This document shows positions 11,379 through 34,963 of a DNA stretch of 34,963 bases, one piece after another. Source of the stretch: Anaeromyxobacter sp. (lineage in GTDB: Bacteria; Myxococcota; Myxococcia; Myxococcales; Anaeromyxobacteraceae); NCBI GenBank assembly GCA_025360965.1, contig JANYBC010000104.1:1-34963 (forward strand), given 5' to 3'. Below the pieces are notes generated by a model. The model was not told where the DNA came from. It saw nothing but the letters and a program-made list of their open reading frames with translations, and did not search any database. Within the stretch, counting starts at the first letter, position 1, and each line of letters begins with the position of its first letter. The translations under genes and the position numbers were made by a program.

Positions 11379-11398
11379 GCGCGGCGCAAGCGCCGCGC
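11379..11398. terminator. GC-rich hairpin just after the ATP-grasp-like gene
   Basis: Minus strand GCGCGGCG-CTTG-CGCCGCGC forms a perfect 8-bp stem with a 4-base loop (9 bp if the loop closes further), 3 bases beyond the stop of the ATP-grasp-like gene. There is no T-run after it, so it may be a weak or Rho-assisted terminator or an RNA-stabilising hairpin. Confidence 0.45.
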
Positions 11399-11401
11399 GA
11401 C

Positions 11402-18744: not shown

Positions 18745-20574
18745 TCAGCCGTCGCGCGAACCGCGCTTGACCGAGTGGCCGTTGCCGCTCAGGGGGCGCG
18801 GCTTGTGCGGACCGGGCCTGAAGCCGCCCGGCTTGAACGGCGCGGAGCGACGCTCGGCCGATCGCGGCGCGGACGGACGTGGCGCGCTCGCCGCCGGTGA
18901 TGGCGGAGCCTCCTCGACGGGGCCGGGCGGGCGGGTGGCCAGCGCCTCCCCGGGCGGCCGCGCCGGCTCGATGCGGAGGCCGGGCGCCCGCGGATCGGGG
19001 ACTCGCGCCGCGGCGGCGAACCGCGAGGCGGCCACCTTGGCCACCTCGAAGCGGGTCTCGGCCGCCAGGATGACGATCTTGCCGATCTCGTCGCGGGTGA
19101 CGCCGCCGCGCCGGCAGAGGAGCGGGAGGATCCACTTCGGGTCGGCCTGCTTCTCGCGCCCGATGGAGATGCGGAACCAGGCCGCCTCGACCGGCGGCCC
19201 CTTTCGGACCGGCTTGGGCCCGCGCGGCGCCTCGCTGGCCACCCGGGTGGTCTCGGGGAGCTCCTCGGGTGCCGGCAGCGAGGCTCGGGCCCGGCGCAGC
19301 AGCGCCAGGGCCAGCGCCAGCGGGTCGCGCCCGGCCAGCAGCGCGCGGGCCGCGGTCAGCTCGTCCTCGGGGGCCTCGGAGGCGGCCGCAGACACCTCGG
19401 CTGCAAGCCGGGCCTCGTCCTGCTGCCGGATCAGGTCGGCGGCCGGCACCGGCGCCCACTCCGGCGTGACGCCGGCCTCGCGCAGCATCCGGTCGAGCTT
19501 GTAGCGCTCCTGCGGCGAGGCCAGCAGCACCGCCTGGCCCTTCTTGCCGGCCCGGCCGGTCCGGCCGCTGCGGTGCTGCAGCGCCGAGGCGTCCTGGGGC
19601 AGGTCGGCGTGGAGCACCAGCTCGATGCCGGGCAGGTCGAGGCCGCGGGCCGCCACGTCGGTGGCCACCAGCACCCGGGCCCGGCCGTCGCGCAGCGACT
19701 TCAAGGCCCGCAGCCGCTCCGTCTGGGTCAGCTCGCCGGAGATGGCCACGGTCTCGAAGCCGCGCTCGCTGAGCGAGGCGGCGGTGTGGGTGACCAGGTC
19801 GCGCCGGGCGCGAAAGACCAGCGCGCTGGCCGGCTCGAGCGCCCGCAGCACGTTGACGATGGCGTGCTCCCGCTCGCGCTGCGCCACCACGTGGGCCCGG
19901 TAGGTGATGTCCTCGTGGGCCTGCTTGGGCGGCGTGGCCGTGACCCGCACCGGCTCGCGGGTGTACGACCGCGCCAGCTCGACGATCGGCTTGGGCAGCG
20001 TGGCCGAGAAGAGGATGGTGCGGCGCTGCTGCGGCGCCGCCTTGAGGATGGACTCGAGCTCCTCGCGGAAGCCCATGTCGAGCATCTCGTCGGCCTCGTC
20101 GAGCACCAGGGCCCCGAGCGCGGAGAGGTCGAGCACCTTGCGCTCGATGTGATCGACGAGCCGGCCCGGGGTGCCGACCACGATGTGGACGCCGGCCTTG
20201 AGCGCCTGGGCCTCGCGGCGGGGATCGAGCCCGCCGACGCAGGCGGTGACGATGCCGCCGGCCGGACCGAAGAGCCAGCCGAGCTCGCGCTGCACCTGCA
20301 CGGCGAGCTCGCGGGTCGGGGCGATCACCAGCCCGAGCGGACGGCCGCCGCGACCGAAGGTGGGGGCGTCGCCGAGCAGGGTCTCGGCCAGCACCAGGCC
20401 GAAGGCCACCGTCTTGCCGGAGCCGGTGCGCGAGGAGACCAGCAGGTCCTTGCCGCGCAGCGCCGGGTCGAGGACGCCGGCCTGCACCGGCGTGGGCTCG
20501 GCGTAGCCGTGAGCGGCGAGCGCGCGCTGGAGGGCCGGATGTGCTGCCAGAGAGGCGAAGTCGGGGGCGCTCAC
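18745..20574 (-). CDS. DEAD-box RNA helicase with DbpA-type RNA-binding domain
   Basis: A 609-residue ATP-dependent RNA helicase of the DeaD/CsdA/DbpA group. It has a Q-motif region (EPTPVQAGVL), Walker A SSRTGSGKT (about 47-55), PTREL, DEAD (159-162), SAT in ILFSATLPK, and the HRSGRTGRAG motif VI. A low-complexity linker (about 390-470) is followed by a DbpA-like RNA-binding domain (WFRISIGREKQADPKWILPLLCRRG). The C-terminal tail (about 540-609) is rich in Pro, Arg and Lys and ends NGHSVKRGSRDG. Such enzymes remodel rRNA during ribosome assembly and help RNA decay, often in the cold. It lies alone, 66 bases upstream of the end of the cytochrome-fusion gene's reading strand. Confidence 0.93.
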   Translation of the reverse strand: MSAPDFASLAAHPALQRALAAHGYAEPTPVQAGVLDPALRGKDLLVSSRTGSGKTVAFGLVLAETLLGDAPTFGRGGRPLGLVIAPTRELAVQVQRELGWLFGPAGGIVTACVGGLDPRREAQALKAGVHIVVGTPGRLVDHIERKVLDLSALGALVLDEADEMLDMGFREELESILKAAPQQRRTILFSATLPKPIVELARSYTREPVRVTATPPKQAHEDITYRAHVVAQREREHAIVNVLRALEPASALVFRARRDLVTHTAASLSERGFETVAISGELTQTERLRALKSLRDGRARVLVATDVAARGLDLPGIELVLHADLPQDASALQHRSGRTGRAGKKGQAVLLASPQERYKLDRMLREAGVTPEWAPVPAADLIRQQDEARLAAEVSAAASEAPEDELTAARALLAGRDPLALALALLRRARASLPAPEELPETTRVASEAPRGPKPVRKGPPVEAAWFRISIGREKQADPKWILPLLCRRGGVTRDEIGKIVILAAETRFEVAKVAASRFAAAARVPDPRAPGLRIEPARPPGEALATRPPGPVEEAPPSPAASAPRPSAPRSAERRSAPFKPGGFRPGPHKPRPLSGNGHSVKRGSRDG

Positions 20575-20640: not shown

Positions 20641-22314
20641 TCAGGGGACTACCCACCCGGTGTCGGCCACCAGCTGCGTCCCCTCGGGCTTCGCGAAGTG
20701 GACGATGTACCCGCCCTTGGAGGCGAAGCGCTGGCCCGGGGCCAGCCCCAGCCGCGGGTAGTAGCCGTTGACCAGGCGGTGGCTCAGCAGCGACTCGAGC
20801 CGCTCCACCAGGTAGTCGCGGACGAAGCTGTCGAGCATGTGGCCGACCGTCTCGGAGAGGATGACGCAGGCCAGGTAGGTGTCGGTCTGCACCCGCTCGT
20901 CCACCACCTGGATGTGCCGGACGTTGAACCAGCCGAGCGGGAAGGCCATCCGGACCTTGCGCTGCTCGGGCAGGTCGAGTGGATAGGCCATGCGGGCCGC
21001 GCCGCGCCACGCCGCCGGCAGGGGGGCCTCCTCCAGCTTCCCCATCAGCCCCGACAGGTAGACCGCCGAGATCCCGGCCGGCGGGGCGGGCAGCGCGGCC
21101 AGGTCGCCGGGGCGAAGCCAGAGGACCAGCGCGTCGCCAGCGCCGGTGGCGCCCAGGGCCGCCCCCAGCCCGGTCCGCGCGGAGCCGGGCTGCAGGACGC
21201 GCGTCACGGTCTCGAGCCCGGGGATGGCGAGGGCGGCCTGGAGCGCCCCGGCCGCCGCGGCGCCGACGCCCCCCGCCTCGTAGACCTGCACCACCCGGCG
21301 CAGCCCGAGCTTCTGGCGCTGCTCGGCGAGCTGCCGGGCGATGAGCTGGGCCTCGAGCAAGACGCCCCTGGAGAAGTAGACCGGGTAGAAGTCCTGCTCC
21401 GCCGCCACCGGGAGGTCGACGTTGGGCAGCAGGCAGGGGAGCGAGGCCTGCTCGCAGAAGCGGTGCACCGGCGCCCAGTTCCTGCCGCCGAGGCCGGAGA
21501 GGACGGCGAAGACCGGCGTCGCCGCGGCGTGGTTGCGCAGTTGCTGCTCCCAGGTCTCGGCCGGCCCGGTGAGCGTCCAGACGTGGAGCTGCCACTTCCG
21601 GTTGACCCGGTACATCACCCCCCGGGTCGACTGCATGGCCGGGCTGTCGCCGCGGTAGCCGACGTTCTTGTCGGCGAAGAACTGCTGGAGCACGTCCAGC
21701 ATGCCCTGGCGCGCGATGGGATCGGCGTCGGGGGTGACGACGGTGGCGAAGTGGAGCGTGTCGCGCGTCACGCCCGGCACCGGGGCGCTGGTCAGCCCCT
21801 TCAAGTAGGCGATCAGCGACGCCATGGTGGCGTCGTCGAGCTGGTAGCGGGGCATCAGGTAGTTGAGCGCCCTCCCGGACTGGTCCCTGCCCTCGCGGAT
21901 GGCCCGGGCCAGCGTGGCGTCGGTGTAGGGGTCGCGGTGGGGGACGTAGCCCTGCACGTGGGGCAGGTCAGGGTCCTCGACGTTGCGGGCCCCGGGGCGG
22001 AACAGGTAGCGGCCGATGATGGGCGGGATGACGATCTGCCCCTCCCAGCTGCCGAGGCCGCTGCGGCGGTGGCAGGTGGCGCAGGCCGCCACCGCCCCCT
22101 CCACGCCCACCCCGCCCTCGCGGCGCCCCTGCAGCGACCTGCCGGAGGGGAGCACCCCCTCGCGATAGAGCCGCTCGCCGGCGGCCGGCGCCGCCCCGCC
22201 GGCGGATGGGGCCAGGAGCGGCAGGAGGGCGAGCAGGACCGCGGCGGCACGGCCGAGCCGGGCTCCGACCCCGCCGGCCGTCGCGGCCACCCCGCCGCCC
22301 TCCCAACAGGTCAC
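20641..22314 (-). CDS. Exported cytochrome c / periplasmic-binding-protein fusion
   Basis: A 557-residue exported protein. A signal peptide-like hydrophobic run (about 19-40) is followed by a monohaem cytochrome c domain (about 45-175). The haem site is CATCH (C78, C81, H82) and the probable axial Met is M154 in NYLMPRY. From about 180 to the end, the pattern (LHFATVVTPDADPIARQGMLDVLQQFFADKN..., PVFAVLSGLGGRNWAPVHRFCEQASLPCLLPNVD) resembles type I periplasmic binding proteins of the amino-acid/urea receptor class. I infer a ligand-linked electron carrier in the periplasm. Start GTG 22314 overlaps the SCO stop within GTGA, so translation is coupled; an in-frame GTG eight codons later is possible. 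No transporter permease is adjacent. Confidence 0.8.
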   Translation of the reverse strand: MTCWEGGGVAATAGGVGARLGRAAAVLLALLPLLAPSAGGAAPAAGERLYREGVLPSGRSLQGRREGGVGVEGAVAACATCHRRSGLGSWEGQIVIPPIIGRYLFRPGARNVEDPDLPHVQGYVPHRDPYTDATLARAIREGRDQSGRALNYLMPRYQLDDATMASLIAYLKGLTSAPVPGVTRDTLHFATVVTPDADPIARQGMLDVLQQFFADKNVGYRGDSPAMQSTRGVMYRVNRKWQLHVWTLTGPAETWEQQLRNHAAATPVFAVLSGLGGRNWAPVHRFCEQASLPCLLPNVDLPVAAEQDFYPVYFSRGVLLEAQLIARQLAEQRQKLGLRRVVQVYEAGGVGAAAAGALQAALAIPGLETVTRVLQPGSARTGLGAALGATGAGDALVLWLRPGDLAALPAPPAGISAVYLSGLMGKLEEAPLPAAWRGAARMAYPLDLPEQRKVRMAFPLGWFNVRHIQVVDERVQTDTYLACVILSETVGHMLDSFVRDYLVERLESLLSHRLVNGYYPRLGLAPGQRFASKGGYIVHFAKPEGTQLVADTGWVVP

Positions 22315-22946
22315 CGGGCGGCGACCAGGTCGCGCAGCTCCCTGGCCAGCTCGTCCGAGGACGCGAAGCCGTCGATCCGCACCCAGCTGCGCCCGTGCGC
22401 GGCGCGAAGGAACGTGACCGGCGTGTGGTTCATCTTATCGCCCCGGTAGACCTCGAAGGCGCGCTGCACCGCGACGCTGGCCTCGGTGGTGCCGGTGTAG
22501 AAGTGCCAGGTGGCGCCGGCGTGGAAGCGCCGGGCGTAGTCCGCCAGGCGCGCCGGGGTGTCCTGCTCCGGGTCGATCGAGATCGAGACCAGGTGGACCT
22601 TACCCAGCTCGCTCCCCAGCTTCTCCTGCAGCTGGGTGAAGGTCTGGCTCAGCACCGGGCAGATGGTGGTGCAGGTGGTGAAGATGAAGTTGAGGACCAC
22701 CGGCCGCCCATCGTCGAACTCCCTGGGGAGGGTCACGGTGGCCCCATCCTCCCGCACCAGGCCGACGCCGGGCAGTGGGTGGTCGGCGGTGGAGCGCGTG
22801 GCCCGCTTCAGGGTCGCCGCCGTGGCCGCCTCGCGGCAGTGGGCGTGCGGGTCGGGCGCCTCCTCGGCGAGGACGGCGGAGGCGGGAGCGAGCAGGGCCG
22901 CGACCAGCGCCAGCGCGGCGACTGGGGGCTTGGCGGGGATTCTCAT
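22311..22946 (-). CDS. SCO1/SenC/PrrC-family copper chaperone
   Basis: A 211-residue exported thioredoxin-fold protein. An N-terminal signal or anchor (about 8-27, VAALALVAALLAPASAVLA) precedes the domain. Copper ligands are C92 and C96 in TTCTTICPVLS, and H174 in DKMNHTPVTF. The ISIDPEQDTPARLADYA segment is typical of SCO. SCO proteins deliver copper to the CuA site of cytochrome oxidase or to other periplasmic copper enzymes, or reduce their cysteines. No cytochrome oxidase gene is in the window, and the neighbours are MCO-family proteins and a cytochrome, so a role in copper loading for this cluster is plausible but inferred. It overlaps the downstream fusion gene by 4 bases and begins 23 bases after the lipoprotein gene. 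Confidence 0.9.
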   Translation of the reverse strand: MRIPAKPPVAALALVAALLAPASAVLAEEAPDPHAHCREAATAATLKRATRSTADHPLPGVGLVREDGATVTLPREFDDGRPVVLNFIFTTCTTICPVLSQTFTQLQEKLGSELGKVHLVSISIDPEQDTPARLADYARRFHAGATWHFYTGTTEASVAVQRAFEVYRGDKMNHTPVTFLRAAHGRSWVRIDGFASSDELARELRDLVAAR

Positions 22947-22969
22947 GTCGACCTCGTGCGGTGAATGGC

Positions 22970-23842
22970 TCAGTTGGGCTTCCCGAAGCGGGCGTCATCG
23001 AGCTGGGGGTTGAGGGCCACCCGCTCGACCATGATTTTCTCCGAGCCCGGGACCCCTTCGACGGCGGTCTCGAGCAGGTGCGGGATCATCAGCCCGTTCA
23101 CCGGCTTGTAGTCGCGGAAGTAGGTCCAGACCAGGTGTTGCTTCCCGTCCAGGCGGCGGGTCCCACCGTCGATCTTCACCTCCAGGAAGGTCTGGGCGTC
23201 TACCCAGACGTGGCGCACCTGGCCATTGCTCAAGGTGACCTTGAGCCGGAAGGCGTCACGCCCATCCACCGGCTCGTTCCCCTCCAGCTCGACCCGGCTG
23301 CCCTTTTTGGCGTAGTCGATGAGCGGTCCGTCCAGATCGGACTGCAGCGAGGCCAGCTGCAGCTCCTCGGCGGTGTAGGGCTCCACCTCGCGGCGCCCCA
23401 AGAAGGGCCGCAGCTTCCAGCCGCTGGCCCCGTCGTAGACCTGCACCGCCGTCTGCCCCTGGAAGCGGACCTCCACCCGCGTCTTGCGTGGCCGCTCCAG
23501 CTCCATGACGAAGGGCAGCAGCACCGGCTTGTCGGCATCGGCCTGGCGGGCGTTGGCCGCGGCCTTCCTGGCCTCGACCTTGAGCTGGGTCCGGGGCCGC
23601 AGGTAGGACTCCGCAAGCCTGGCCTGGCTCATGGGCCTCCCCGCCTCCAGGCTGCCCGACAGCGACATCGACTTGACGGCGCGCCAGGCCTCCAGGCCAC
23701 CGCGCGCCGCCGCGTTCTTGTCGGCGATCGGCTCGGCCGAGCGCTCGGCGGGGGTGGCCCGGTGACAGCCGGCCGCGACCAGCGCCAAGGCGACGACCGC
23801 GGAGCGGGAGAGCGAGGGAGGCAGCGAGCGTCGTCGGTTCAT
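22970..23842 (-). CDS. Outer-membrane lipoprotein, LolA/LolB-like fold suspected
   Basis: The 290-residue product begins MNRRRSLPPSLSRSAVVALALVAAGC, a lipoprotein signal with C26 as the probable lipidated residue (lipobox AAGC, slightly atypical). The rest alternates beta-strand-like segments, such as KTRVEVRFQGQTAVQVYDGASGWKL and AFRLKVTLSNGQVRHVWVDAQTFLEVKIDGG. This is the strand/turn pattern of LolA-like half-barrel proteins annotated as outer membrane lipoprotein-sorting proteins. A role in binding a hydrophobic ligand is inferred only. Start ATG 23842 is preceded by AGGAG at 7 bases; an earlier in-frame ATG (23863) is less likely. The upstream exported-protein gene ends 20 bases away. 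Confidence 0.8.
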   Translation of the reverse strand: MNRRRSLPPSLSRSAVVALALVAAGCHRATPAERSAEPIADKNAAARGGLEAWRAVKSMSLSGSLEAGRPMSQARLAESYLRPRTQLKVEARKAAANARQADADKPVLLPFVMELERPRKTRVEVRFQGQTAVQVYDGASGWKLRPFLGRREVEPYTAEELQLASLQSDLDGPLIDYAKKGSRVELEGNEPVDGRDAFRLKVTLSNGQVRHVWVDAQTFLEVKIDGGTRRLDGKQHLVWTYFRDYKPVNGLMIPHLLETAVEGVPGSEKIMVERVALNPQLDDARFGKPN

Positions 23843-23862
23843 GGTTTCACTCCTGGGAGGCA

Positions 23863-24408
23863 TCAGTCCACCACCAGCCCCTCGGCCCGGAAGTTGCCCA
23901 CCACCAGCGTCACGCGGCCGCCGCGCTTCACCAGCCCACCCGGGTTCCCGAAGATCACGAAGTAGGTGCGGTTGGTCTCCAGCGGGGCCACTTGGCGCAG
24001 CTCGCCGATGTTCTCCATGGCCGGGACGGCGAGCGCGGTGTGGGTCGCCTCGTCGATCAGGTACGGCCTGGCCTTGCGATCGGTCAGCGCCGCCGCCTTC
24101 CCTGGATCGACGACCCGGTAGTCGAACCGCAGCATGGCGCCCGAGGAGACGCGCCGGACGCCGACGATGTCGACGCCCCAGTTGCGCTGGAAGTACTGGC
24201 TACGGGGGACGTGGCTGGTCGAGGCCACCGGCTTCGCCTTGGGCCTGGCGGCGGGTGCGGGCGACACCTTGGCCGGCTCGGCCGCGGGAGGGGTGGCCTC
24301 CTGCGCCCGGACCGGGCCCCCGGTCGCCAGCACCCCCGCGGCCACCAGGCCGGCCAGCAGCGTCGCCATCCTGGTTGGTGTCGCCTGTCTGCGCATGCCT
24401 TGCCTCAT
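23863..24408 (-). CDS. Small exported hypothetical protein
   Basis: A 181-residue protein of unknown function with a signal peptide (about 14-36, ending GPVRAQ), an Ala/Pro/Lys-rich linker (36-65) and a conserved-looking domain (about 70-181). That domain starts SQYFQRNWGVDIVGVRRVSSG and runs through VVDPGKAAALTDRKARPYLIDE to a beta-rich end (VTLVVGNFRAEGLVVD). The strand pattern suggests a small beta-sandwich. Start ATG 24408 is chosen because AAGGTGG lies 3 bases upstream; the open frame extends further but without protein-like character. It is the first gene after the internal hairpin and probably the head of the downstream sub-operon with the lipoprotein, SCO and cytochrome-fusion genes. 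Confidence 0.8.
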   Translation of the reverse strand: MRQGMRRQATPTRMATLLAGLVAAGVLATGGPVRAQEATPPAAEPAKVSPAPAARPKAKPVASTSHVPRSQYFQRNWGVDIVGVRRVSSGAMLRFDYRVVDPGKAAALTDRKARPYLIDEATHTALAVPAMENIGELRQVAPLETNRTYFVIFGNPGGLVKRGGRVTLVVGNFRAEGLVVD

Positions 24409-24454
24409 AACCACCTTCAGTCGCCTGCGCTGCACCCTGGGAGGTCCAGCAGGT

Positions 24455-24483
24455 GCGGCCTGGGAGGCACTACCCCAGGCCGC
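24455..24483. terminator. Perfect 10-bp hairpin between the giant gene and the downstream genes
   Basis: GCGGCCTGGG (24455-24464) and CCCAGGCCGC (24474-24483) pair perfectly across a 9-base loop. It sits in the only sizeable gap (131 bases) of the minus-strand cluster, between the giant gene's stop and the next start. No T-tract follows, so it may be a partial terminator, an mRNA-end stabiliser or an RNA-processing site that sets different expression levels on its two sides. Confidence 0.55.
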
Positions 24484-24539
24484 GCCCATCGAATGGCCCC
24501 CGTTCGAGGCCCGCCCACTCCCTGCCAGGGCGCTGCTCG

Positions 24540-27500
24540 CTAGTTGCTGCTTCCGGTCAGCGCCACCGTCCCCGTGACGACAGGGGTGGTTCCCCTCACG
24601 TTCAAGGTCGCGGCCTTCGCCCCCGCCGAGGTGGGGTGGAAGCTCACGACGATGGTGCAACTGGCGCCCGCGGCCAGCGTCGCCGGGGGCACCGGGCAGG
24701 CGTTGGTGGCGATGGCGAACTGGCCCGCGTTGGGACCGGTGATGGTGATGCCGGGCCCGCCGCCGCCGCCGATGATGGTCAGCGGGCCGGTCCCGGAGTT
24801 GAGCAGCGCCACGTCCTGCAGCGTGGTGGAGTTACGCAGCTGCGCGCCGAAGCCGAAGGTAGTCGGGTTCATGGCGATGGCGGGAATCAGCAGCGTGCCG
24901 GTGAGCGTCCCCCGCTGGAGGCCGCCCGGCGCCGCCAGGTTGAAGTTGAGGAAGGCCGACTTGGTGACCGGGTTGGCAGGCGGCAGGCCCGCCGGCGTGA
25001 AGGTGACGGCGACCGTGCAGAAGGCGTTCGCCGGCAGCGTTCCGGGGCAGTTGTTGCTGGTGATGGCGAACTGGCCCGGATTGAGGCCCACCCCTCCCCC
25101 GATGGCCACGTTGTTGATGACGGCGATGCCCGGCCCGGCGTTGGTCACTTTGATGGCCTGCGGAGCTGTCGTGACCTGGAGCAGGCTCGCGAAGAGCGCC
25201 GGGTTGGGCGAGAAGACCAGGTTCGGCACCAGGATGGTCCCGGTCAGCGCCACCGACGCCGAGTTGCCGGTCCCCGCGACGTTGAACTGGAGGACCGCCG
25301 TCTTGATGAGCGGCGACGCGGCGACCGGCGCGAAGGTGACGGTCACCGTGCAGCTGGCGCCCGCGGCCAGCGTCGCCGGGGGCACCGGGCAGCCGTTGGT
25401 GGCGATGGCGAACTGGCCCGGGTTGGTGCCAGCCAACGCCACGTTGGTGATGGTGAGCGACGTGGCGCCGGTGTTGCTGAACGTCACCGGGGCGCTGGTG
25501 GTGGTGTTGATCGACGTGGCCAGGTCGAGCGCGGCCGGCGAGACGGCGTCGTTGCGGAGGTAGTTGCCGAAGGCCGCCACGTTGCCGCTGGCCACCGAGC
25601 CGGAGGAGTAGAGCGGCCCGTAGCGCATGTTGACGTAGTTGTTCCCCTCGTCCTCGGTGGCCGCCACTTGCAGGTTCTTGACGCTGGGCGGGTTGATGAC
25701 GCCCGGCAGCTCGGGCACCACGCGCGAGCCGTTGCAGTACTGGCCGCCCAGCCTGAAGCCGGCGGGGCTGGTGTTGCCGGAGCCCAGGTAACCCACGGTG
25801 CTGGTCATGATGGTGAACGTCGGGTTGAGCGCCACCGCGCCCGGCACCGGGCTGCCGTCGCCGAGAGCGCCGATGTCCCAGTAGGCGGCCCCCGACGGGC
25901 ACTGGCCGGTGGTGGCCTGGTTGGCCAGCGTGGTGCAGCCGCTGCCCGCGGTCCCCACGTCGTTCCCGGCGCAGATCAGCCCTCCGACCGCGGGGGCCGT
26001 GGCCGGGGCGTAGTAGAAGGACCGGTTCTGCCAGATGATGTCCCTGGTGAGGGTCGGCTGGGAGACGGCGTTGGCTGTCCGCAGGGCCAGCGAGGCCATC
26101 TGGGCGAGCAGCTGCGCGCTGGTGGGCTCGGAGACGATGCCGGAGGGGCTGGGACGACCGCGGCCCACCACACCGGGGGTCGCCACCGGGACCACGCCGC
26201 CCGCCAGCATCACGCCCGCGATGCCGGCGCTGTCGTTGGACGCGATGGTGTCGTCGACGATGGAGGTGCGCAGCGCGTCGGAGACCGAGACGCCGCCACC
26301 CGCCCAGCCGGCCACGTTGTTGACGATCAGGTTGTTGCTGATCGTGACCCGGTACCACTGCGACGGATCGGCGGGGAAGGCGGTCACGTCGGCGCCGTTG
26401 ACCTGCTGCAGCCGGATGCCGCCACCCTGGCCGGCCTCGGCGAAGTTGCCGCGGACCAGGTTGCCGTCGATGGTGACGTCGCCCGTGCCCAGCGAGACCG
26501 TCCCGACCAGCGGCGGCTCACCGCCCACGAAGATGCCGCCGCCGTGGGTGGCGGCCGTCTGCTGGAAGCTCTGGTTGAAGAGCACCTGGTTGGCGGAGAT
26601 GGAGCCGCCCTGGCTGAGGCCGAGGTGGCCGATGCCGGCGCCGTCCGCGCTGCTGTAGTTGCCGCAGATCCAGTTGTGGTCGACGCTGTAGCCGTCGGTG
26701 CCGGAGCAGATGGAGACGCCGCCGCCGGCGCCGCCGTTGCCGAGCGGCGCCTCGACGGTGCCGTTCTTGGTGACGGCGTTGTGGTGGATCCGGACATTCT
26801 CGTCGTAGCCGAAACCGGGGATGCGCTGGCCAGCGCTGGAGGCCGGGAGCGCCACCTGCTCCAGGTAGGGAACGCCCACGCGGATGCCGCCGTTGTAGGC
26901 GCCGGCGTTGCCGTAGACCCGGTTGTTGGAGATCTCCAGGCCGTGGGCCCAGCCGTTGACGTAGATGCCGCCACCGGCGTCGCCGCCGGTGACGCTGAGG
27001 CCGTCGATGCGGGAGGGCTGGCAGATGAAGTTGCTGTCGTAGCCGACGGTGAGCCTGTCGTTGCAGCTGGTGAAGGGGAGGTTCTTGGCCAGCACGGTGA
27101 TGCCGGGGCCCTCCTCCGTGCCGAGCACCGACGGCTCGAGGATGATCACGCCGCCGGTGATCTCCTGCGTGGGCAGCGGATCGACCTGGGACGGCAAGGT
27201 CTGGTTCCCGGTGATCGAGTCGACGTTGAAGAGCTGGTTGATGCTCTTGCGCCAGGTCTCGAGCTTGGAGGTCGGGTACTTGGCGGCGTTGATGATGACC
27301 GAGGCGGCGCCGACGCCCTGCAGCCGGACCGGCTTGGACATGATCACCAGCTCGTTGTACGTGCCGGCGTCGACCATGATCAGGTCGCCCGGCTTGGCCA
27401 GGTCGACCGCCCCCTGGATGGTCTGCCCCAGGCTGGCCTGGACCAGCGTGGGCGCGGCGCCGCCCTGGGTGACCGTGACGGTGTCGACCGAGGTCAGGCC

Positions 27501-30500
27501 GGAGGCGGTGGTGATGACCAGCTCGCTCTCAGCCAGCTGCGGCGAGGGGAGGGCCGCGAGGGGCTGGACGGTGACCGTGATGCTGGTGTCGGACCAGGCG
27601 ACGGAGGCCGGAGGGAGGGTGGTGGTGGTGTAGCGCCTGGTGCCGTCGGCCGGGTTGACGATGGTGGTGACCAGCTTCACGGTGCCCTTGGCGGCGCCGA
27701 AGCCGTAGTGGCGCAGGACGGTGGGCTGGCTGGACGGGCCGCTGGCCGCGAACGGGCCGGCGTAAGCCGGGTTGGGGACCAGCTGGTCGCCCTGGGCCTG
27801 GATGGTCAGCGTGCCGCCGGCGGCCGGCAGCCAGGGGCCGATGCCGGCGCTGCCGTCGACCCGCAGGATGGCGGGCGCGTGGTCGGGCTGGGCGCAGTCG
27901 GGCGGGTTGTAGCCGGCGGCGAAGGCCGCGATGGGCAGGACCGGGGTGTCGAGGTAGGTGGTCTGCCCCGGCATGAACGGCACCGTGTAGCAGAAGTTGC
28001 TGTAGGCCGGGTTGTAGGCCGGGTCGGTGATCATCGTCCCGTTCGTTCCTGGGATGGGCCCCGGGTCGTTGATGCAGACCACCATCATGTTCGGCCCATA
28101 GCCGGACGGCGTGGGCGGGTTCACCAGCCAGCTCGAGGGCGTCATGGTGTTGTAGGCACCCCACTGGTCGCTGTAGGTGCGGCTGACCTCCATGCCGGTG
28201 AAGTCCTTGATCGACACCGGCACGAAGGGCACCGAGGCCTTCTCGCCGAAGTCCGGCGCCGCTGCGTTGAACTCCGAGGAGGCGTCGTCGAGGATGATGC
28301 CGGTGTTGTTGCTGGCCACCGGGACCTCGGTGAAGACGAAGAAGGCGGCGCTGGCCTGCTGCTGGTCGTTGAGGGCCACCAGCTTGCGGTCGCAGAGCGG
28401 ACGGTCCATGCCGGCGAAGGGCGCGACCTGCTTGGCCTGCGGGTAGAGGCTGAGGAAGTCGGGGACGCGGTGCGGGGTGCCGACGCACTCGGGGAAGGTG
28501 GCGGCGTTGGAGATGCCGTACACGCCCAGGTTGCTGGTCGGGTTGCTCTGGAACCCGGGGTCGCCGGTGGAGGGGTTGTACGGGTTGGCGTTACCGAGGG
28601 TGGCCTGGTCCGGGAGGATGAAGATGCTGCCCAGGGGGCCGAACTGCTGCGTCACCGGAGCCACGAAGGCGTCGCCGATGAGGATGTTCTTGTCCTCCTC
28701 CTTGACGACCTGGTAGCCGGGGGGGGTGACCTCCTCGACCACGTAATGTCCTGGAGGCAGGCTGACCAGGGTCGGGCACGTCGTCGTGGCGGACGGCGTG
28801 CATGGCGCCAGCGGGTTGGCGGCGATGTAGGCCGGGCTCGGGAAGCTGAAGCGGCCGTCATAGGGGGCGCCCTGCACCTGGTTCCAGTCGTGCCAGCCGT
28901 CGTAGCAGCGCTTCCGGTCGGCGGCGCCCAGCGTGTAGAGGACGAAGGGATCGCTGGGGTCCTGGCCGGGGCACTGCAGGTTGACCTGGACGCCCGCGGT
29001 CACGCCGGTGGGGGCGACGGCCCCGGTGGCCGGATCGCGCAGCGTGCCGTCGGTCCCGAGCAGGTAGTTCTTGCCGTCGGACCCCTTCACCAGGTTGACG
29101 AAGTCGTCGAAGCTGGTGGTGGTGGTGCTGTCGACCAGCGCCAGCGTCTCGGTGCCGTCGGCCAGCGTCTTCTTCTGGTAGAGGTTCACCTGCACGCGCG
29201 GGATGAGCGGCTCCCAGATGGTCTGCACGTTGAGCCGCATGTCGTCGAACGGGCGCGTCGAGGAGTAGACCACGGTCCCGAGGATGCCGCCGTTCTCGCC
29301 GGCCAGGTAGGGCGCCCGGCCCCACTCCACGCGGTTCCGCTGGCTGATGAAGCTCTGCAGGCCGTAGGTCTGCGAGCCCGGCAGCTCGGTCCGCTCGGTC
29401 GTCCCGTCGAGCGGGTAGGCGTAGTTCGAGGACCAGAGCCTGGCGCCGGGGCCGGCGGTGTCCACCTTGCCGCCGCCGTCCACGTAGACGTGGACGCCGG
29501 TCTGCTTGAAGCGGGTGGTGTCGGCCTCGGCGACGTACCAGTTGAAGAGCGGGAACATCTCGACCAGCAGGCCGTTGCCGTTGCTGTCGGTGAGCGTGGT
29601 CATCGACGGCGCGCCGTTGCGGAAGCGCACGCTGAGCGGGACGTTGGAGATGCCGGGCTCGCCGGGGTCCATCTTCCCGTTCCCGTTCAGGTCCATGAAG
29701 ATGTTCTGGTCGTACTGCGTGAACCAGCTCAGCACCGGGATGTCGCCCATGGCCACCGTGGCGGTGGCGGCGGGGACGCTCACGGCGACGGCCTGGATGA
29801 TCTGGTCGAGCCACTGGTCGAAGACCTCCACTTCGAAGTCACCGGCCGGGACGCCGCTCAGGACGAAGTTGCCGTCCGGGTCGCACTGCGCGGAGGCGAT
29901 GGCGGGTCCGTTACCGCCCTGGGAGTTGAGCACCACCTGGCAGGTGGTGGAGGAGAGCAGGTCGTACCCGCCGGAGTCCCACAAGGTCACGCTGGAGGGG
30001 TGCGACATGTGCTGGCTGGTGATCTTGCCGGTGATGGTGTGCGTGCCGGTCAGGCCCCTGGCGGTCGCGTAGGCGGCGACGTGGGCCGGGTTGACGAAGC
30101 CGATGGTGGTGTGCGGTCCGGGCGGCCCGAACTCCTGGAAGTACCCGGGCTCGTTGATGCCGACGAAGGCGTCCTGCGCCGGCGTGCCCTCCAGCGTCTC
30201 GGTCTGCCACCAGACCTCGCCGGCGGCCTCGCGCGCCGCGCCCGGGTGGGCGATGACGTCGTAGCGGGCCGGGGTCAGGTTCTTGATGAGGGCGTGGCCG
30301 GCCAGGGCGTAATTCACGCCGTCGGCCAGCGGGGTCCCGTAGTTGGGATCGCTCGGGCAGGTGTAGATCGCGCCGACCAGGTTGCCGCCCGGCGAGGTGG
30401 CCGTCCCGTTGGTCTTGCCGTTCAGCTCGTCCGGGCAGCCCGGCCTGCCGAGCAGGGCGTTGGAGAGCGGCATGTTGAAGGCGTCGTAGGTCTGCTGGCC

Positions 30501-33014
30501 CGCCGGATCGCCGGTGCGGCCGGCCGGGTCGAGGAGGATGATGTTGAAGCCGCCCAGGGGGGGCTCGATGGTCCCGTCGTTGGCCCCGTTGGTCGGGTTG
30601 TTGTCCTCGTAGATGTAGAGGCTCATCTGCGCGGTCACCAGCGGGCTCACCTGGAGCTTGATGTTCAAGGGTGCCAGGGTCTTGGTGCTGCCGGCCACCA
30701 GCTTGACCTCGCCGCCGCCCATGATGTGGCCGGGGGGGCTCCCGGCGTCGCCGGGCAGGATCGAGACGTAGTAGTGCCGGGACGGGTCGAGGGCCACCTG
30801 GGCGAGCGTCGCCTGCCGCAGGAGCGCGTCGGCGTCTGTCACCACCTTGCGATTGGTGGTGTTGTCGATCGGGCCCGCCACGTCGATCCTGGTCGACTGG
30901 CCGCTGCCGCAGCTGATGGGGCCGACGCAGCCGGTCGCCACCACCGGCATGTGGCTCCGGTGGAAGCTGGTGCCGACGGTGCGGGTGCTGACCGAGGGGG
31001 TGCCGGTGACGTCGTGCTTGAAGGTCAGGTCCTCCTGCAGCGTCCAGCGGTAGTCGGTGATGGCGACGCCGCTGATGGCGTCGGCCACCGTGACGGCCAG
31101 GCCCGAGGTGGCGCCGGGCGCGCCGAAGCTCACGGTCACGGTCGCGGGCGTGGCGCTCGCAGTGCCCTGCGAGTTGACGGCGTTGTAGGTGAACGCGCAC
31201 GAGGCCGGGGCCCCCGTCGCGGTCACGTCGAACGACCCATCCGCACGGAGCGTCACGGAGGCGCAGCTGCCCGTCGCCGCCAGACTGGCGGTGAGCGGGA
31301 AGCCGTGGGGATCGGAGTCGTTGGACAGCACGCCGGGGCGCGCCACGCTGAACGTGCTGGTGAAGGCGCTGGTGTAGCTGTCGGCGTTGGCGACCGGCGT
31401 GTTGCCGGCGCCGGTGAGCTGCGCGGCGACGGTCAAGGTCACGGTGGCGGTCAGGGCGGCGTTGCCGTTGCCGTAGTAGGTGAAGCTGTCGGGGCCGGAG
31501 TAGCCGGCGGTGGGCGTGTAGGTGAAGCTGCCGCTGCCGCCGAGGGACAGGGTGCCGTGCTGGACCAGCAGGACGTTGTTGAGCGCCACGCTGGTGATGG
31601 AGGTGTCGTTGGCCGTCACGTTGGCGCTGATGGCGGTGTTGTAGGGCACCTTGAAGGCGTCATCGACCGCCCTGGGGACGACCGCGGCGGGCAGGAAGCC
31701 CGGTGCGCCGGTGCCGACCACGCCGCCGTTGGCCGCGATGGCGGCGGCCTGGTTGATGAGCAGGAAGGCCTGCATGCCGCCGTCGGCGCGGTTGTTGGTG
31801 CTCAGGCTTAGGGAGCGGTCGAACACCGGGTAGGTGGCCGCCGCGTAGGCGTTCCCGCTGGCGGCGGGGTGCACCACCGCGTCGTAGGTCTTGCCGGCGG
31901 TCAGCAGCACCTCGCTCTGGACCTTGGGGTTCCCCTTGGCGAGGTTGCCGTCCTCGGCGACCAGCGCCATGGGCAGGCCGACGATCGACGGGATGTGCGT
32001 CCGGGAGCCGGCGTTGAGCAGCCGCACCAGCATGGTGCTGGAGGGGATGGCGTAGCTGGTCCCGTTGGCCAGGTGGAACGCCGAGTCCTCGGGAGCCGTC
32101 TTGTCGAACCAGTGGCCGTTGATGAGGAAGTAGGTCGGGGCGTAGTTGACCGCCGCCGGGTAGCAGGGCGCGGTCGGGGTGCAGAGGGGGTCGTTGAAGC
32201 GGCGGTTCACGTCGGCCCCGGCGACCGCGGCGGCGTCGACCGCCGCGTTCTGCGCCACGTCGATCTCGCTGAACAGCAGCGTGGCGTCGGCGTCGTAGCT
32301 CACGCCCGGATAGGCCGTGCCGGCGGCGCCCGGCGTCGCCGGCGAGGGGGGCGCGGTCACCACCAGCACGCCGTAGAGGCCCATGGGCACCTGCAGCGAG
32401 GGGAGCGTGCCGGTCTCGTAGAGGTAGGTGCCGGGCTTGAGGCTGCCGAAGGTCAGCGTGGCGGTGCCGGCCGCCGCCACCTCGGTGCCGAAGGAGCGGA
32501 CGCGCGGCGACTGGGCGGGCGGGATGAAGGCGTTGGGCGTGCCGGGAGGATTGACCGGGGCGTTGCCCACGAAGGTGGTGTTGTTCTGGCCGGCGTGCCC
32601 GGGGCTGGCCATCTTCACCGGCGTCCCCAGGCCGCCGCCGAGCTGTCCGAGCACGACCAGCGAGGTCGGCACCGGCAGCGCGTTGGTCAGGGCGATCTGC
32701 ACGGTGTCGCCGGCGGTCGCGTAGATGATCGGCCCAGGCGCCCAGTTGCTGCTGGTGGCGCAGGAGGCGGTCTCGCAGAAGCCCCACATCGGGGCCGGGG
32801 TCCCGTCGGGCAGGGTCGTGCTCATCCGCTTCGCCGTCAGGTTGATGACGACGCCGGGCGTGTTCTGGATTCGGGCGGCGGGACGGGCGGCGGCCGCGCT
32901 GGCCGTGGCCGAGGCGGGGCGGCTCCCCACGCCGCAGGAGACGCTGGACAGCATGAGCGCAGCGACCCCGACGGCGGTCGACAGGCGAAGGCACTTGGAC
33001 AGATGGGTTCGCAT
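24540..33014 (-). CDS. Giant secreted multidomain protein with MCO-like N-terminus and beta-helix
   Basis: The 2,824-residue product starts at ATG 33014, which has GAGGAG six bases upstream. A signal peptide with C27 (SSVSC, weak lipobox) is followed by two to three cupredoxin-like domains (about 45-450) that match the MCO in the preceding gene (GDTVQIALTNALP, YFLINGHW, VAEDGNLA) but keep none of the classic His/Cys copper motifs. Next come cadherin/Ig-like repeats (about 450-640), SdrD-B or CNA-B-like domains with DxNGxG calcium-type loops (about 790-1450; DLNGNGKMDPGEPG near 1108), an IPT/TIG-like stretch (about 1720-1845), a parallel beta-helix (about 1865-2370) and three Hydin/choice-of-anchor-D repeats (about 2485-2824). 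It has no CxxCH and no obvious C-terminal sorting signal. It is probably a surface or matrix scaffold; its function is unknown. Confidence 0.88.
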   Translation of the reverse strand: MRTHLSKCLRLSTAVGVAALMLSSVSCGVGSRPASATASAAAARPAARIQNTPGVVINLTAKRMSTTLPDGTPAPMWGFCETASCATSSNWAPGPIIYATAGDTVQIALTNALPVPTSLVVLGQLGGGLGTPVKMASPGHAGQNNTTFVGNAPVNPPGTPNAFIPPAQSPRVRSFGTEVAAAGTATLTFGSLKPGTYLYETGTLPSLQVPMGLYGVLVVTAPPSPATPGAAGTAYPGVSYDADATLLFSEIDVAQNAAVDAAAVAGADVNRRFNDPLCTPTAPCYPAAVNYAPTYFLINGHWFDKTAPEDSAFHLANGTSYAIPSSTMLVRLLNAGSRTHIPSIVGLPMALVAEDGNLAKGNPKVQSEVLLTAGKTYDAVVHPAASGNAYAAATYPVFDRSLSLSTNNRADGGMQAFLLINQAAAIAANGGVVGTGAPGFLPAAVVPRAVDDAFKVPYNTAISANVTANDTSITSVALNNVLLVQHGTLSLGGSGSFTYTPTAGYSGPDSFTYYGNGNAALTATVTLTVAAQLTGAGNTPVANADSYTSAFTSTFSVARPGVLSNDSDPHGFPLTASLAATGSCASVTLRADGSFDVTATGAPASCAFTYNAVNSQGTASATPATVTVSFGAPGATSGLAVTVADAISGVAITDYRWTLQEDLTFKHDVTGTPSVSTRTVGTSFHRSHMPVVATGCVGPISCGSGQSTRIDVAGPIDNTTNRKVVTDADALLRQATLAQVALDPSRHYYVSILPGDAGSPPGHIMGGGEVKLVAGSTKTLAPLNIKLQVSPLVTAQMSLYIYEDNNPTNGANDGTIEPPLGGFNIILLDPAGRTGDPAGQQTYDAFNMPLSNALLGRPGCPDELNGKTNGTATSPGGNLVGAIYTCPSDPNYGTPLADGVNYALAGHALIKNLTPARYDVIAHPGAAREAAGEVWWQTETLEGTPAQDAFVGINEPGYFQEFGPPGPHTTIGFVNPAHVAAYATARGLTGTHTITGKITSQHMSHPSSVTLWDSGGYDLLSSTTCQVVLNSQGGNGPAIASAQCDPDGNFVLSGVPAGDFEVEVFDQWLDQIIQAVAVSVPAATATVAMGDIPVLSWFTQYDQNIFMDLNGNGKMDPGEPGISNVPLSVRFRNGAPSMTTLTDSNGNGLLVEMFPLFNWYVAEADTTRFKQTGVHVYVDGGGKVDTAGPGARLWSSNYAYPLDGTTERTELPGSQTYGLQSFISQRNRVEWGRAPYLAGENGGILGTVVYSSTRPFDDMRLNVQTIWEPLIPRVQVNLYQKKTLADGTETLALVDSTTTTSFDDFVNLVKGSDGKNYLLGTDGTLRDPATGAVAPTGVTAGVQVNLQCPGQDPSDPFVLYTLGAADRKRCYDGWHDWNQVQGAPYDGRFSFPSPAYIAANPLAPCTPSATTTCPTLVSLPPGHYVVEEVTPPGYQVVKEEDKNILIGDAFVAPVTQQFGPLGSIFILPDQATLGNANPYNPSTGDPGFQSNPTSNLGVYGISNAATFPECVGTPHRVPDFLSLYPQAKQVAPFAGMDRPLCDRKLVALNDQQQASAAFFVFTEVPVASNNTGIILDDASSEFNAAAPDFGEKASVPFVPVSIKDFTGMEVSRTYSDQWGAYNTMTPSSWLVNPPTPSGYGPNMMVVCINDPGPIPGTNGTMITDPAYNPAYSNFCYTVPFMPGQTTYLDTPVLPIAAFAAGYNPPDCAQPDHAPAILRVDGSAGIGPWLPAAGGTLTIQAQGDQLVPNPAYAGPFAASGPSSQPTVLRHYGFGAAKGTVKLVTTIVNPADGTRRYTTTTLPPASVAWSDTSITVTVQPLAALPSPQLAESELVITTASGLTSVDTVTVTQGGAAPTLVQASLGQTIQGAVDLAKPGDLIMVDAGTYNELVIMSKPVRLQGVGAASVIINAAKYPTSKLETWRKSINQLFNVDSITGNQTLPSQVDPLPTQEITGGVIILEPSVLGTEEGPGITVLAKNLPFTSCNDRLTVGYDSNFICQPSRIDGLSVTGGDAGGGIYVNGWAHGLEISNNRVYGNAGAYNGGIRVGVPYLEQVALPASSAGQRIPGFGYDENVRIHHNAVTKNGTVEAPLGNGGAGGGVSICSGTDGYSVDHNWICGNYSSADGAGIGHLGLSQGGSISANQVLFNQSFQQTAATHGGGIFVGGEPPLVGTVSLGTGDVTIDGNLVRGNFAEAGQGGGIRLQQVNGADVTAFPADPSQWYRVTISNNLIVNNVAGWAGGGVSVSDALRTSIVDDTIASNDSAGIAGVMLAGGVVPVATPGVVGRGRPSPSGIVSEPTSAQLLAQMASLALRTANAVSQPTLTRDIIWQNRSFYYAPATAPAVGGLICAGNDVGTAGSGCTTLANQATTGQCPSGAAYWDIGALGDGSPVPGAVALNPTFTIMTSTVGYLGSGNTSPAGFRLGGQYCNGSRVVPELPGVINPPSVKNLQVAATEDEGNNYVNMRYGPLYSSGSVASGNVAAFGNYLRNDAVSPAALDLATSINTTTSAPVTFSNTGATSLTITNVALAGTNPGQFAIATNGCPVPPATLAAGASCTVTVTFAPVAASPLIKTAVLQFNVAGTGNSASVALTGTILVPNLVFSPNPALFASLLQVTTAPQAIKVTNAGPGIAVINNVAIGGGVGLNPGQFAITSNNCPGTLPANAFCTVAVTFTPAGLPPANPVTKSAFLNFNLAAPGGLQRGTLTGTLLIPAIAMNPTTFGFGAQLRNSTTLQDVALLNSGTGPLTIIGGGGGPGITITGPNAGQFAIATNACPVPPATLAAGASCTIVVSFHPTSAGAKAATLNVRGTTPVVTGTVALTGSSN
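24655..24727. repeat. Near-identical 73-bp direct repeat in the giant gene, copy 1
   Basis: It matches 25348-25420 at 71 of 73 positions. It encodes the GCPVPPATLAAGASCT core of the last Hydin-like repeat. The middle repeat of the three is clearly more divergent, so the match points to recent duplication or gene conversion rather than ancient tandem growth. Confidence 0.85.
25348..25420. repeat. Near-identical 73-bp direct repeat in the giant gene, copy 2
   Basis: Partner of the copy at 24655-24727, 693 bases away start to start, a multiple of three. Recombination between them would therefore delete two Hydin-like repeats in frame. Confidence 0.85.
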
Positions 33015-33042
33015 GGGATTCTCCTCGATCGTCCTGCGCGGC

Positions 33043-34533
33043 TTACTGCGTCTCATCGATGAACCAGACCGGCGGGTCGACCAGCAGCATCGACAGGATG
33101 CCGCCCGGGAAGACATCGTTGGTGGTGATCTCGCGCTCGTTGTGCGAGTGCCACATGTAGGCGTAGCCGGCCTGCGGGTTCTGGTTGAGCGTGCCCGGCG
33201 GCTCGTTGGTGGCCGTGAAGCCGCCCGTCTTCTGGATGCCCAGGTAGGGGGTGCCGCCGTACCACTGGCCGATGGCCACGATGGTCGGATCGGGCGGCGC
33301 CACCGGGATGGGCTTCAGGTGGTCGGCGCACCACTCCCCGTAGTTCGGGTCGGTCTTGACCGAGTGGAATCCGTTGGCGTCGGGGGTGCAGGCCACCACC
33401 GGGACGTCGCTGCGGGAGTGGTTGTAGACGTCCCAGTTGAGCCCCTTGCCGGACCAGGTGAAGATCTGGTCCTGGGTCTGGCCGGAGACGGTGGGGGTGG
33501 TGAAGAGCAGCGGCCCGGCCAGGGAGGTGCCGTCGACCGCGCTCACCATTAGGTTGCCGTCGCGCGCCAGCACGCGCGCGTGGTTGCCGTGGAAGTGGAA
33601 CGGGTGCTGCCAGCGCCCCTGGCCGATGATCCGCATCAGCAGCTTCTCCCCTGGGTGCATGTGGGGGTTGGCGTTGTAGGGCTGGTGCACGTAGCCGGGC
33701 GAGTAGGAGGTGTCCATGTCGTCGGGCATGGAGCGGCCGTTGAGCAGGAAGTAGTTGGGGTGATAGGGCTCGGTGACGACCTGGATCTGCGGGCAGGGGC
33801 CGGTGGGGCAGGCGTTGACCTGGGCCAGGGCCGCGCCGTGGATCCGCGAGTCCATCTCGCTGATCTGGAAGAGGTACTCGCGGTCGTAGCAGGTGCCGGC
33901 GTTGTCGTAGGCGGCGGCCGCCAGGGAGTAGGCGCCCTTGGCGGGGCAGCCCGCCTGCACCGCCGGCAGGACCACGATGGCGCCGTAGAGCCCCATCTCG
34001 ATCTGGAGGTCGCCCTGGGTCCCGCTGTAGTAGGCGTGCGTCCCGGGCGTGGTCGCCGTGAAGCTGTAGCTCACCGTGCCGCCGCTGGCCGCCTCCTGCG
34101 TGAGCAGGCCGGCCGCGGTGCCGGCGCCGGTGGTGGCGGTCACCGCGAACCCGGGGAACAGGATCGAGGTGTTGCCGGCCGCCGCCGGCAGCGCGTTGCG
34201 GAGGTTGACGGTGACCTTGTCGCCCTCGTTCACGATCAGCGTCGGCCCCGGCAGCTGCATGGTGGGGCAGAAGGAGGAGGGCCCGGTGCTGTTGGCGACC
34301 GGCCCGGGCAGGAAGCCGCCCGGCGCCCCATCACACCCGTAACCCCAGGCGTAGACCGATGCGCCGTCGGGCTGGCTGATGAAGCCGGGGCTGGCGACCA
34401 GGTTGAAGGTGGGGCCGGTGATGCCCGGCACCGCAGCCCGGGCCGGTGACGACGGCAGCAGGCCCACCAGGCCGACGACGGCGGTGAGGAGTCCGAGGAC
34501 CGTGCTGCGACGCTTCGGGATGGTGGGGGTCAT
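33043..34533 (-). CDS. Exported multicopper-oxidase-family protein with atypical copper motifs
   Basis: A 496-residue exported protein (signal peptide about 1-34, cut after ARA) with three cupredoxin-like domains. The third-motif sequence HPFHFHG (H310, H313, H315) is intact. The C-terminal motif reads MWHSHNEREITTNDVFPGG (H462, H464) instead of HCHxxxHxxxGM, so the type-1 copper cysteine is missing. In domain 1, the usual HxHG and HSH motifs are replaced by NTSILFPGF and HAYYSGTQ. A classical laccase-type four-copper site is therefore unlikely, though one or two coppers may bind. I recall similar HSHNE variants in bacterial proteins annotated as multicopper oxidases. AGGAGA precedes ATG 34533, 11 bases after the upstream gene's stop; the giant gene starts 28 bases downstream. 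Confidence 0.85.
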   Translation of the reverse strand: MTPTIPKRRSTVLGLLTAVVGLVGLLPSSPARAAVPGITGPTFNLVASPGFISQPDGASVYAWGYGCDGAPGGFLPGPVANSTGPSSFCPTMQLPGPTLIVNEGDKVTVNLRNALPAAAGNTSILFPGFAVTATTGAGTAAGLLTQEAASGGTVSYSFTATTPGTHAYYSGTQGDLQIEMGLYGAIVVLPAVQAGCPAKGAYSLAAAAYDNAGTCYDREYLFQISEMDSRIHGAALAQVNACPTGPCPQIQVVTEPYHPNYFLLNGRSMPDDMDTSYSPGYVHQPYNANPHMHPGEKLLMRIIGQGRWQHPFHFHGNHARVLARDGNLMVSAVDGTSLAGPLLFTTPTVSGQTQDQIFTWSGKGLNWDVYNHSRSDVPVVACTPDANGFHSVKTDPNYGEWCADHLKPIPVAPPDPTIVAIGQWYGGTPYLGIQKTGGFTATNEPPGTLNQNPQAGYAYMWHSHNEREITTNDVFPGGILSMLLVDPPVWFIDETQ

Positions 34534-34544
34534 CGGCGGATCTC

Positions 34545-34963
34545 CTAGTTGACCTGGATCTCGGTCATCATTCCGCCGAAGTTCTCGGCGTCGTTCGACA
34601 GGTGGTCGAGGTTGGTGGAGTAAAGGAAGTAGGTGCCCTGGGGGACGTTGGTGACGTCGAGGATCACGTCCGCCGACTCGCCTCCGCCCATGGTGATCGA
34701 GTTGGTCTGGTAGGTGGTGTCGCCGCCGGCCATGTCGCGCAGCAGCCGGGCGTTCTGCGCGATCACCGTCATGGGGATCCCGATGGTCCCGAGCGTCACG
34801 TGCTCGGTCACGCTCAGCATCGAGATGCGCAGCAGCGCGCGGGTCTGGCCGCCGGTCTTGTTGATGGTGATCAGGCTGGGCAGCGGCTGCGACGGGCGCG
34901 AGACGCCGTCCGAGGAGAGCGTGGAGATGGGGGCGGGGTTGACGGTGTCGGGGTAGCCGCGGC
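34545..34963 (-). CDS. C-terminal part of an MCO-fold protein (partial)
   Basis: The frame is open from the window edge for 139 codons to TAG at 34545. It reads RGYPDTVNPAPIS..., then LITINKTGGQTRALLRISML and VPQGTYFLYSTNLDHLSNDAENFGGMMTEIQVN at the end. The pattern of a ligand-binding beta-sandwich followed by a xGTYFLY...GGMMTEI terminus is that of the last cupredoxin domain of MCO-family proteins. Here too the HCHxxxH motif is absent (YSTNLDH instead). Because the N-terminal part is outside the window, copper sites elsewhere cannot be judged. An internal ATG (34820) would give only 91 residues and cut the fold, so I extend the gene to the edge. Confidence 0.75.
   Translation of the reverse strand, partial: RGYPDTVNPAPISTLSSDGVSRPSQPLPSLITINKTGGQTRALLRISMLSVTEHVTLGTIGIPMTVIAQNARLLRDMAGGDTTYQTNSITMGGGESADVILDVTNVPQGTYFLYSTNLDHLSNDAENFGGMMTEIQVN

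Follow-up and report, generated by a model that had tools for sequence, protein, structure and literature searches.

The 34,963-bp stretch of Anaeromyxobacter sp. DNA analysed here (the window) is the whole of contig JANYBC010000104.1 (G000:C131) from a 3.83-Mb, 259-contig assembly, and seven consecutive minus-strand genes at positions 20641-34961 form a cluster in it. In order from the contig end these are a fragment of a multicopper oxidase (MCO) gene (MCO1), a second MCO-fold gene (MCO2), and genes for a giant exported protein, a small exported protein (SMALL), a LolA-like lipoprotein, an SCO1/SenC protein (SCO) and a cytochrome c. From the distribution of copper ligands it is rather likely that the cluster makes an exported MCO whose three two-domain cupredoxin chains are not identical but different proteins, with a trinuclear copper centre (TNC) shared by MCO1 and MCO2. 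The third chain, MCO3, is in the window the N-terminal part of the giant protein.

Copper ligands of MCO1, MCO2 and MCO3

A multicopper oxidase requires a type-1 copper, bound by His, Cys, His and Met, and a TNC on eight histidines, of which each of two domains provides four. The corresponding features of the window are:

34545..34961, minus strand: MCO1, C-terminal 138 amino acids (aa), second cupredoxin domain (Pfam Cu-oxidase)
33043..34533, minus strand: MCO2, 496 aa, two cupredoxin domains and a signal peptide (Pfam Cu-oxidase_3 and Cu-oxidase_2)
33580..33606, minus strand: MCO2 half-site motif HPFHFHGNH (TNC ligands H313, H315), aligning to domain 2 of the structure 3g5w
33130..33153, minus strand: MCO2 half-site motif WHSHNERE (TNC ligands H462, H464), aligning to HDH of 3g5w domain 2
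31695..32933, minus strand: MCO3, the third MCO-fold unit, with two domains and no copper ligands, here fused with the giant protein (Cu-oxidase/Cu-oxidase_3, weak)

In the ligand alignment, which covers 93 loci for MCO1 and MCO2 and 84 sequences for MCO3 (numbered as in the related genome G022), the MCO1 positions H174, H177, H179, H219, C220, H221, H227 and M232 are kept at all 93 loci. Together they make up the type-1 site and four TNC histidines, all in domain 1, where the relatives have the motifs HTxHxHG and HCH..PPEH.QMGM. The complementary four TNC histidines (H303, H305, H450 and H452) are likewise kept at 93 of 93 loci in domain 2 of MCO2, the type-1 Cys position of which is occupied by Ser or, in one divergent relative, by Asn, and none of these ligand positions of MCO1 or MCO2 is kept in MCO3. 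The motif HPFHFHGNH is invariant in 10 Myxococcota sequences as well as at the 93 loci, and in WHSHNERE of the window, too, Ser replaces the type-1 Cys. Compared with ordinary type-C two-domain MCOs, the partner half-sites have thus been lost from domain 2 of MCO1, from domain 1 of MCO2 and from all of MCO3; as a control, ordinary type-C two-domain MCOs that came up in related searches were compared, and all nine of them have the two half-sites together on a single chain.

Among solved structures, 3g5w ('Multicopper oxidase type 1') comes closest to MCO1; it is a type-C two-domain MCO which shares with the cluster the two-domain chains, the type-1 site in domain 1 and the motifs HTxHxHG, HCH..H..M, HxHG and HxH. 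Domain 1 of MCO1 aligns to domain 1 of this structure, and domain 2 of MCO2 aligns to its domain 2 with a weak score (E 0.18) and the motifs in register. When two-domain MCOs form trimers, domain 1 of one protomer and domain 2 of its neighbour hold the TNC between them (PMC13151041). Judged by their sequences, neither MCO1 nor MCO2 could complete a canonical TNC alone. An earlier reading made from the sequence of the window alone (the sequence-only reading) had counted two MCO-fold proteins besides the giant, which agrees with Pfam, but as two enzymes they do not stand, each apparently bearing half of one trinuclear site. It had also described the N-terminus of the giant as MCO-like, in accordance with the Cu-oxidase matches, and had missed that copper ligands are lacking there.

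Because the MCO1 gene runs past the contig end, the window shows only the MCO2 half-site. The sequence-only reading had rightly called the gene partial: the window being the whole contig, it is cut by the contig end. The remaining fragment shares 79-83% identity with the C-terminal end of the complete MCO1 proteins (493-552 aa) of the genomes G005, G022, G007 and G001, and MCO2 is 73-77% identical to its orthologues of related genomes. A further contig of the same assembly, C8, breaks off within an MCO1 gene, of which it has the N-terminal part (G000:C8:14512-15750, locus L164). This part and the MCO1 fragment of the window (34853-34963) overlap over about 109 nt, where they are only about 84% identical. 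Owing to this mismatch of about 16% the two contigs were not joined, and C8 was rejected as the missing N-terminal half of the window gene; a second MCO2 was not found. The MCO1 part on C8 is either a second copy or the product of two strains mixed in the bin.

Conservation and composition of the gene set

By scanning named genomes with the MCO1 alignment at least 518 relatives were confirmed, of which the best 80 loci were fetched. MCO2 lies beside MCO1 in all 80, and MCO1, MCO2 and MCO3 are adjacent in 78, the contigs of the other two being too short; the sequence-only reading had named scattered, unlinked homologues as evidence against a common set, and what is found is a kept gene order. 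MCO3 is present wherever the contig is long enough, MCO1 and MCO2 are separate open reading frames at all loci, and since each of the three proteins matches the profiles of the others, they are paralogues. The carriers among the fetched loci belong to the Burkholderiales (Burkholderia, Paraburkholderia, Cupriavidus, Collimonas, Herbaspirillum), the Acidobacteriota, the Gallionellaceae (a Sideroxydans metagenome-assembled genome) and the Myxococcota. At the Sideroxydans locus (L062) the gene order is the same as far as the stretch reaches, its last gene being the LolA-like one.

The whole set occurs in the same order in the related genomes G005, G007 and G022, which are complete or near-complete, with 62-83% identity per protein over the best-matching regions and with differing flanking genes. 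Two further genomes deviate slightly: in G014 neither MCO1 nor the start of the giant was recovered intact, and G047 has a second LolA-like gene and SCO placed after the cytochrome. In a second architecture (G024, G004, G077, G072, G142, G292 and G538) the giant lacks an MCO domain and is followed by separate genes for MCO1, MCO2 and MCO3 and then by SMALL, with SCO and the cytochrome present where the stretch reaches them. MCO3 is therefore either a gene of its own, as in these seven genomes, or fused to the giant, and the divergent second architecture keeps the identical split of the ligands. In the fetched loci the accessory genes are often farther off, on the other strand or beyond the fetched stretch; the core of the system thus consists of the MCO trio and the giant. 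In the one annotated copy that was inspected, the genes of the cluster are labelled hypothetical.

Several observations concern individual carriers. Acidobacteria bacterium AB60 (G064, locus L059) has five separate MCO1 genes in its genome, and P. madseniana has two clusters (L065, L125). Cupriavidus metallidurans CH34, a metal-tolerant and well-studied laboratory strain, has a complete cluster with two LolA-like genes (L184, NC_007974.2, about 1,331-1,347 kb). The nine genomes of genus g4, in the family to which the window belongs (G006, G011, G015, G017, G019, G020, G021, G022 and G023), include a single carrier of the cluster, G022 (6.7 Mb; contamination estimated at 6%), which suggests its patchy gain or loss. 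In G022 and G007 genes resembling sigma-54 activators lie about 0.5-0.8 kb upstream of MCO1 (L042 13482-14561 and L044 13887-14840) and might code for a regulator.

Besides the MCO genes, the following features of the cluster were recognised:

24540..33014, minus strand: giant exported protein of 2,824 aa, a putative lipoprotein (LSSVSC) with N-terminal MCO3 and, behind it, scaffold domains (translation, ribosome binding site GAGGAG)
31230..31676, minus strand: giant, bacterial immunoglobulin-like (Big_9) / cadherin-like domains (Pfam)
29574..29702, minus strand: giant, SdrD B-like domain (Pfam)
26217..27419, minus strand: giant, probable right-handed beta-helix region (weak; Pfam Beta_helix just under the cut-off, weak NosD-like match)
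24549..25517, minus strand: giant, three C-terminal choice-of-anchor-D / ASH-type domains (NCBIfam NF012200, E 1e-29, three stretches)
23863..24369, minus strand: SMALL, 168-aa exported protein, predicted all-beta sandwich, occurring in both architectures
22970..23842, minus strand: LolA-like lipoprotein, 290 aa, lipobox VAAGC (weak Pfam LolA_like)
22311..22946, minus strand: SCO1/SenC protein, 211 aa (Pfam E 1.7e-21)
20641..22314, minus strand: cytochrome c, 557 aa, joined to a putative periplasmic binding-protein domain and in architecture MofC-like (Pfam Cytochrom_C)

All seven genes, which the sequence-only reading had taken for one co-directional copper/redox set of exported products, were confirmed, and the set is conserved. 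They were called with a codon model, their G + C content at third codon positions (0.85-0.98) is typical for coding sequence here, and the intergenic gaps from MCO1 to the cytochrome measure 11, 28, about 170, 20, 23 and -4 nt. For the MCO, SCO, cytochrome c and scaffold domains there is backing from Pfam and NCBIfam matches. The length of 2,824 residues given earlier for the giant agrees with a start at the ATG at 33014 behind a good ribosome binding site, and complete copies with fused MCO3 among the fetched loci mostly have about 2,400-2,850 aa. For SMALL, an AlphaFold2 model reached a pLDDT (predicted local distance difference test) score of 78, and the fold search gave no significant match, only immunoglobulin-like ones with E >= 0.009. 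Orthologues of the LolA-like lipoprotein are 62-68% identical. SCO, the only strong SCO match across the assembly, has the thioredoxin-like domain, the CxxxC motif (CTTIC) and the distal His (...NHTPVTF) of its family. The cytochrome protein has one CxxCH motif (CATCH at residue 78) and is conserved in relatives; the cytochrome c part of the earlier description is backed by Pfam, whereas the binding-protein domain went undetected by Pfam in 20641-22314 and is annotated in a homologue on plasmid AP028202 (as an ABC-type substrate-binding protein).

The DEAD-box helicase gene that adjoins the cluster (18745-20574) is not conserved with it in the relatives compared; it was therefore rejected as a member, and the cluster is taken to end at 20641. 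Elsewhere in the window, a signalling block at 7098-12742 comprises a sigma-54 response regulator, a hybrid PAS histidine kinase, a GGDEF response regulator and a 446-aa protein (11402-12742) with zero Pfam matches.

The proposed oxidase, related systems and alternatives

From the division of the TNC ligands over MCO1 and MCO2 we infer a heteromeric oxygen-reducing oxidase, the oligomer of which is probably a heterotrimer. In such an enzyme domain 1 of MCO1 would dock on domain 2 of MCO2, so that one TNC arises where the two subunits meet, and MCO3 would close the ring as a third, inactive subunit which, in its window form, may tether the enzyme to the giant scaffold/lipoprotein. With copper presumably supplied by SCO, the type-1 copper would take single electrons from an extracellular donor and the TNC would reduce O2 to water. 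As an intact TNC implies O2 as the acceptor, the tentatively favoured function is that of an extracellular oxidase which draws its electrons from a metal or mineral. The most plausible donor would be a metal or mineral, namely Fe(II) and possibly Mn(II), as suggested by expression in one relative and by analogy.

A structural model was available from locus L057, where MCO1 and MCO2 share a frame and are separated by a TAG codon, so that the read-through chain could be modelled with AlphaFold2 (97 aligned rows; pLDDT 76, predicted template modelling score 0.75). The MCO2 motif HPFHFHG at residue 773 lies within a confident stretch. Several points weigh against the proposed enzyme: confidence is low at residues 126-130, 139-156 and 182-187, beside the MCO1 motifs (133, 178), and at 929-936, by the HSH motif of MCO2 (starting at 925); the top Foldseek matches of the model, i.e. 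ceruloplasmin, related blood proteins and MnxG (9bxa), with E of about 1e-25 and template modelling scores of about 0.25, reflect the domains only and not their overall arrangement; the copper-bearing first domain of MCO1 falls outside the window, past the contig end; and in Burkholderiales loci SMALL, LolA, SCO and the cytochrome do not always adjoin the MCO genes. With respect to the docking itself, the Foldseek result neither confirms nor refutes it, because the expected docking is permuted relative to the gene order and to ceruloplasmin.

The sequence-only reading could not name the gene set, which is in fact of the same kind as Slit_1812-1818 of Sideroxydans lithotrophicus ES-1 (PMC12016527). 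There, too, three cupredoxin proteins, a large one of which has adhesin/polysaccharide-lyase-like domains without MCO motifs, are encoded together with small proteins, SCO1/SenC and a cytochrome; the window correspondingly has three adjacent cupredoxin genes (two with MCO motifs, one large without) plus SCO1/SenC, small proteins and a cytochrome, and against this description no difference in kind was found. Late during growth on magnetite, the levels of the Slit_1812-1818 cupredoxin proteins exceeded those on Fe(II)-citrate; the authors propose an involvement in oxidising solid Fe(II), and they note similar clusters in Paraburkholderia, Ralstonia, Anaeromyxobacter and Steroidobacteraceae (PMC12016527). 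Slit_1817 and Slit_1818 are treated in that paper as two proteins with canonical MCO motifs, and in its main-text passages we found no discussion of a complementary split of one trinuclear site. Thus the gene cluster itself has already been published, and what appears to be new is the division of the active site. One catalytic site divided over two linked genes, with a copper-free third paralogue as anchor, was not found in the literature searched; the hits for split or heterotrimeric MCOs all belonged to work on fungal laccases.

By its ligand pattern the cluster falls outside both established groups. Ordinary type-C two-domain MCOs are homotrimers with both half-sites on each chain, whereas here the half-sites lie on two chains and the third has none. 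Ceruloplasmin and MnxG (PDB 9bxa) likewise have six cupredoxin domains in total, one TNC and most sites lost, but on one polypeptide instead of three, and in bacterial six-domain MCOs the type-1 site is reported to be in domain 2 and the TNC between domains 2 and 3 (PMC3600357), in contrast to the type-1 site in domain 1 of MCO1. Nevertheless, the oxidase probably works like both two-domain and six-domain MCOs.

The position of the type-1 site, here in the first N-terminal domain as in type C, also bears on the idea that a single-chain six-domain manganese or iron oxidase of the MofA/OmpB or MnxG type is encoded in pieces. This is very unlikely, even though in MofA/OmpB systems, too, MCO and SCO are found together with a cytochrome c that bears a binding-protein domain, and Foldseek places ceruloplasmin and MnxG at the top for the four MCO1-MCO2 domains. 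A fused MCO1-MCO2(-MCO3) chain was found neither in the 80 loci nor in 195 relatives from the phylum, 351 genomes of the Rhodoferax locus family and 150 of the Sideroxydans locus family, with few candidates scored per genome. An MCO is accompanied by a MofC-like cytochrome in the OmpB/MofA systems, and a periplasmic binding domain has been described for such cytochromes in iron oxidisers (PMC5566968). MofA, a putative Mn oxidase, and MofC of Leptothrix, like the OmpB cluster GSU1394-1398 of Geobacter, resemble the present cluster in having an MCO and a cytochrome c protein, the periplasmic binding domain of which is putative in the window; Geobacter and some others also have a SCO1/SenC gene (PMC5566968). 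By their descriptions they are set apart by a single large MCO, by the MofB isomerase in Leptothrix and by the lack of any described three-gene MCO set (PMC5566968). Still slightly more improbable is a periplasmic copper-detoxification set of the CueO/CopA kind with an unusual surface protein: MCO and SCO genes would fit it, as would the metal tolerance of several carriers such as C. metallidurans CH34, but no CopA/CueO family match came near the curated cut-offs, no copper efflux or CopB/C/D genes were recognised beside the cluster in the window or in relatives, and a giant surface-type scaffold is present.

Less remote, though still unlikely, is an extracellular electron-transfer relay in which only the type-1 site of MCO1 is occupied, the cytochrome passes electrons on, and the TNC histidines bind copper or another metal structurally without reduction of O2. 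Such a relay would make use of the cytochrome c encoded in the set, and it has a precedent in OmpB of Geobacter, which, with a MofC-like cytochrome and a SCO gene nearby, is required for Fe(III) oxide reduction (PMC5566968). S. lithotrophicus moreover seems to use the cluster on a solid electron donor (PMC12016527). However, eight canonical TNC histidines that are spread over two chains and yet invariant at all 93 loci are hard to explain unless they are used together, and the cluster is frequent among the Burkholderiales and Acidobacteriota of soils, which also speaks against a relay.

Implications for multicopper oxidase evolution and assay

The cluster may well represent, with somewhat less certainty than the shared site itself, a widespread class of obligately heteromeric MCOs, i.e. 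paralogous heterotrimers with one type-1 copper, one TNC shared by two gene products and a copper-free subunit anchored via a giant protein. MCO1 relatives are encoded in at least 518 genome stretches, the best 80 of which stem mostly from soil and plant-associated Burkholderiales and Acidobacteriota. If true, this class would be an example, separate from ceruloplasmin and MnxG, of a symmetric homotrimer reduced to a single active site, and would constitute a second evolutionary route from homotrimeric to single-site multicopper oxidases. If the site is shared, a single one of these MCOs expressed alone would look like 'no activity', and labelling each protein as an MCO would be misleading; the proposal gives a practical approach to assaying a candidate extracellular metal or mineral oxidase in laboratory strains.

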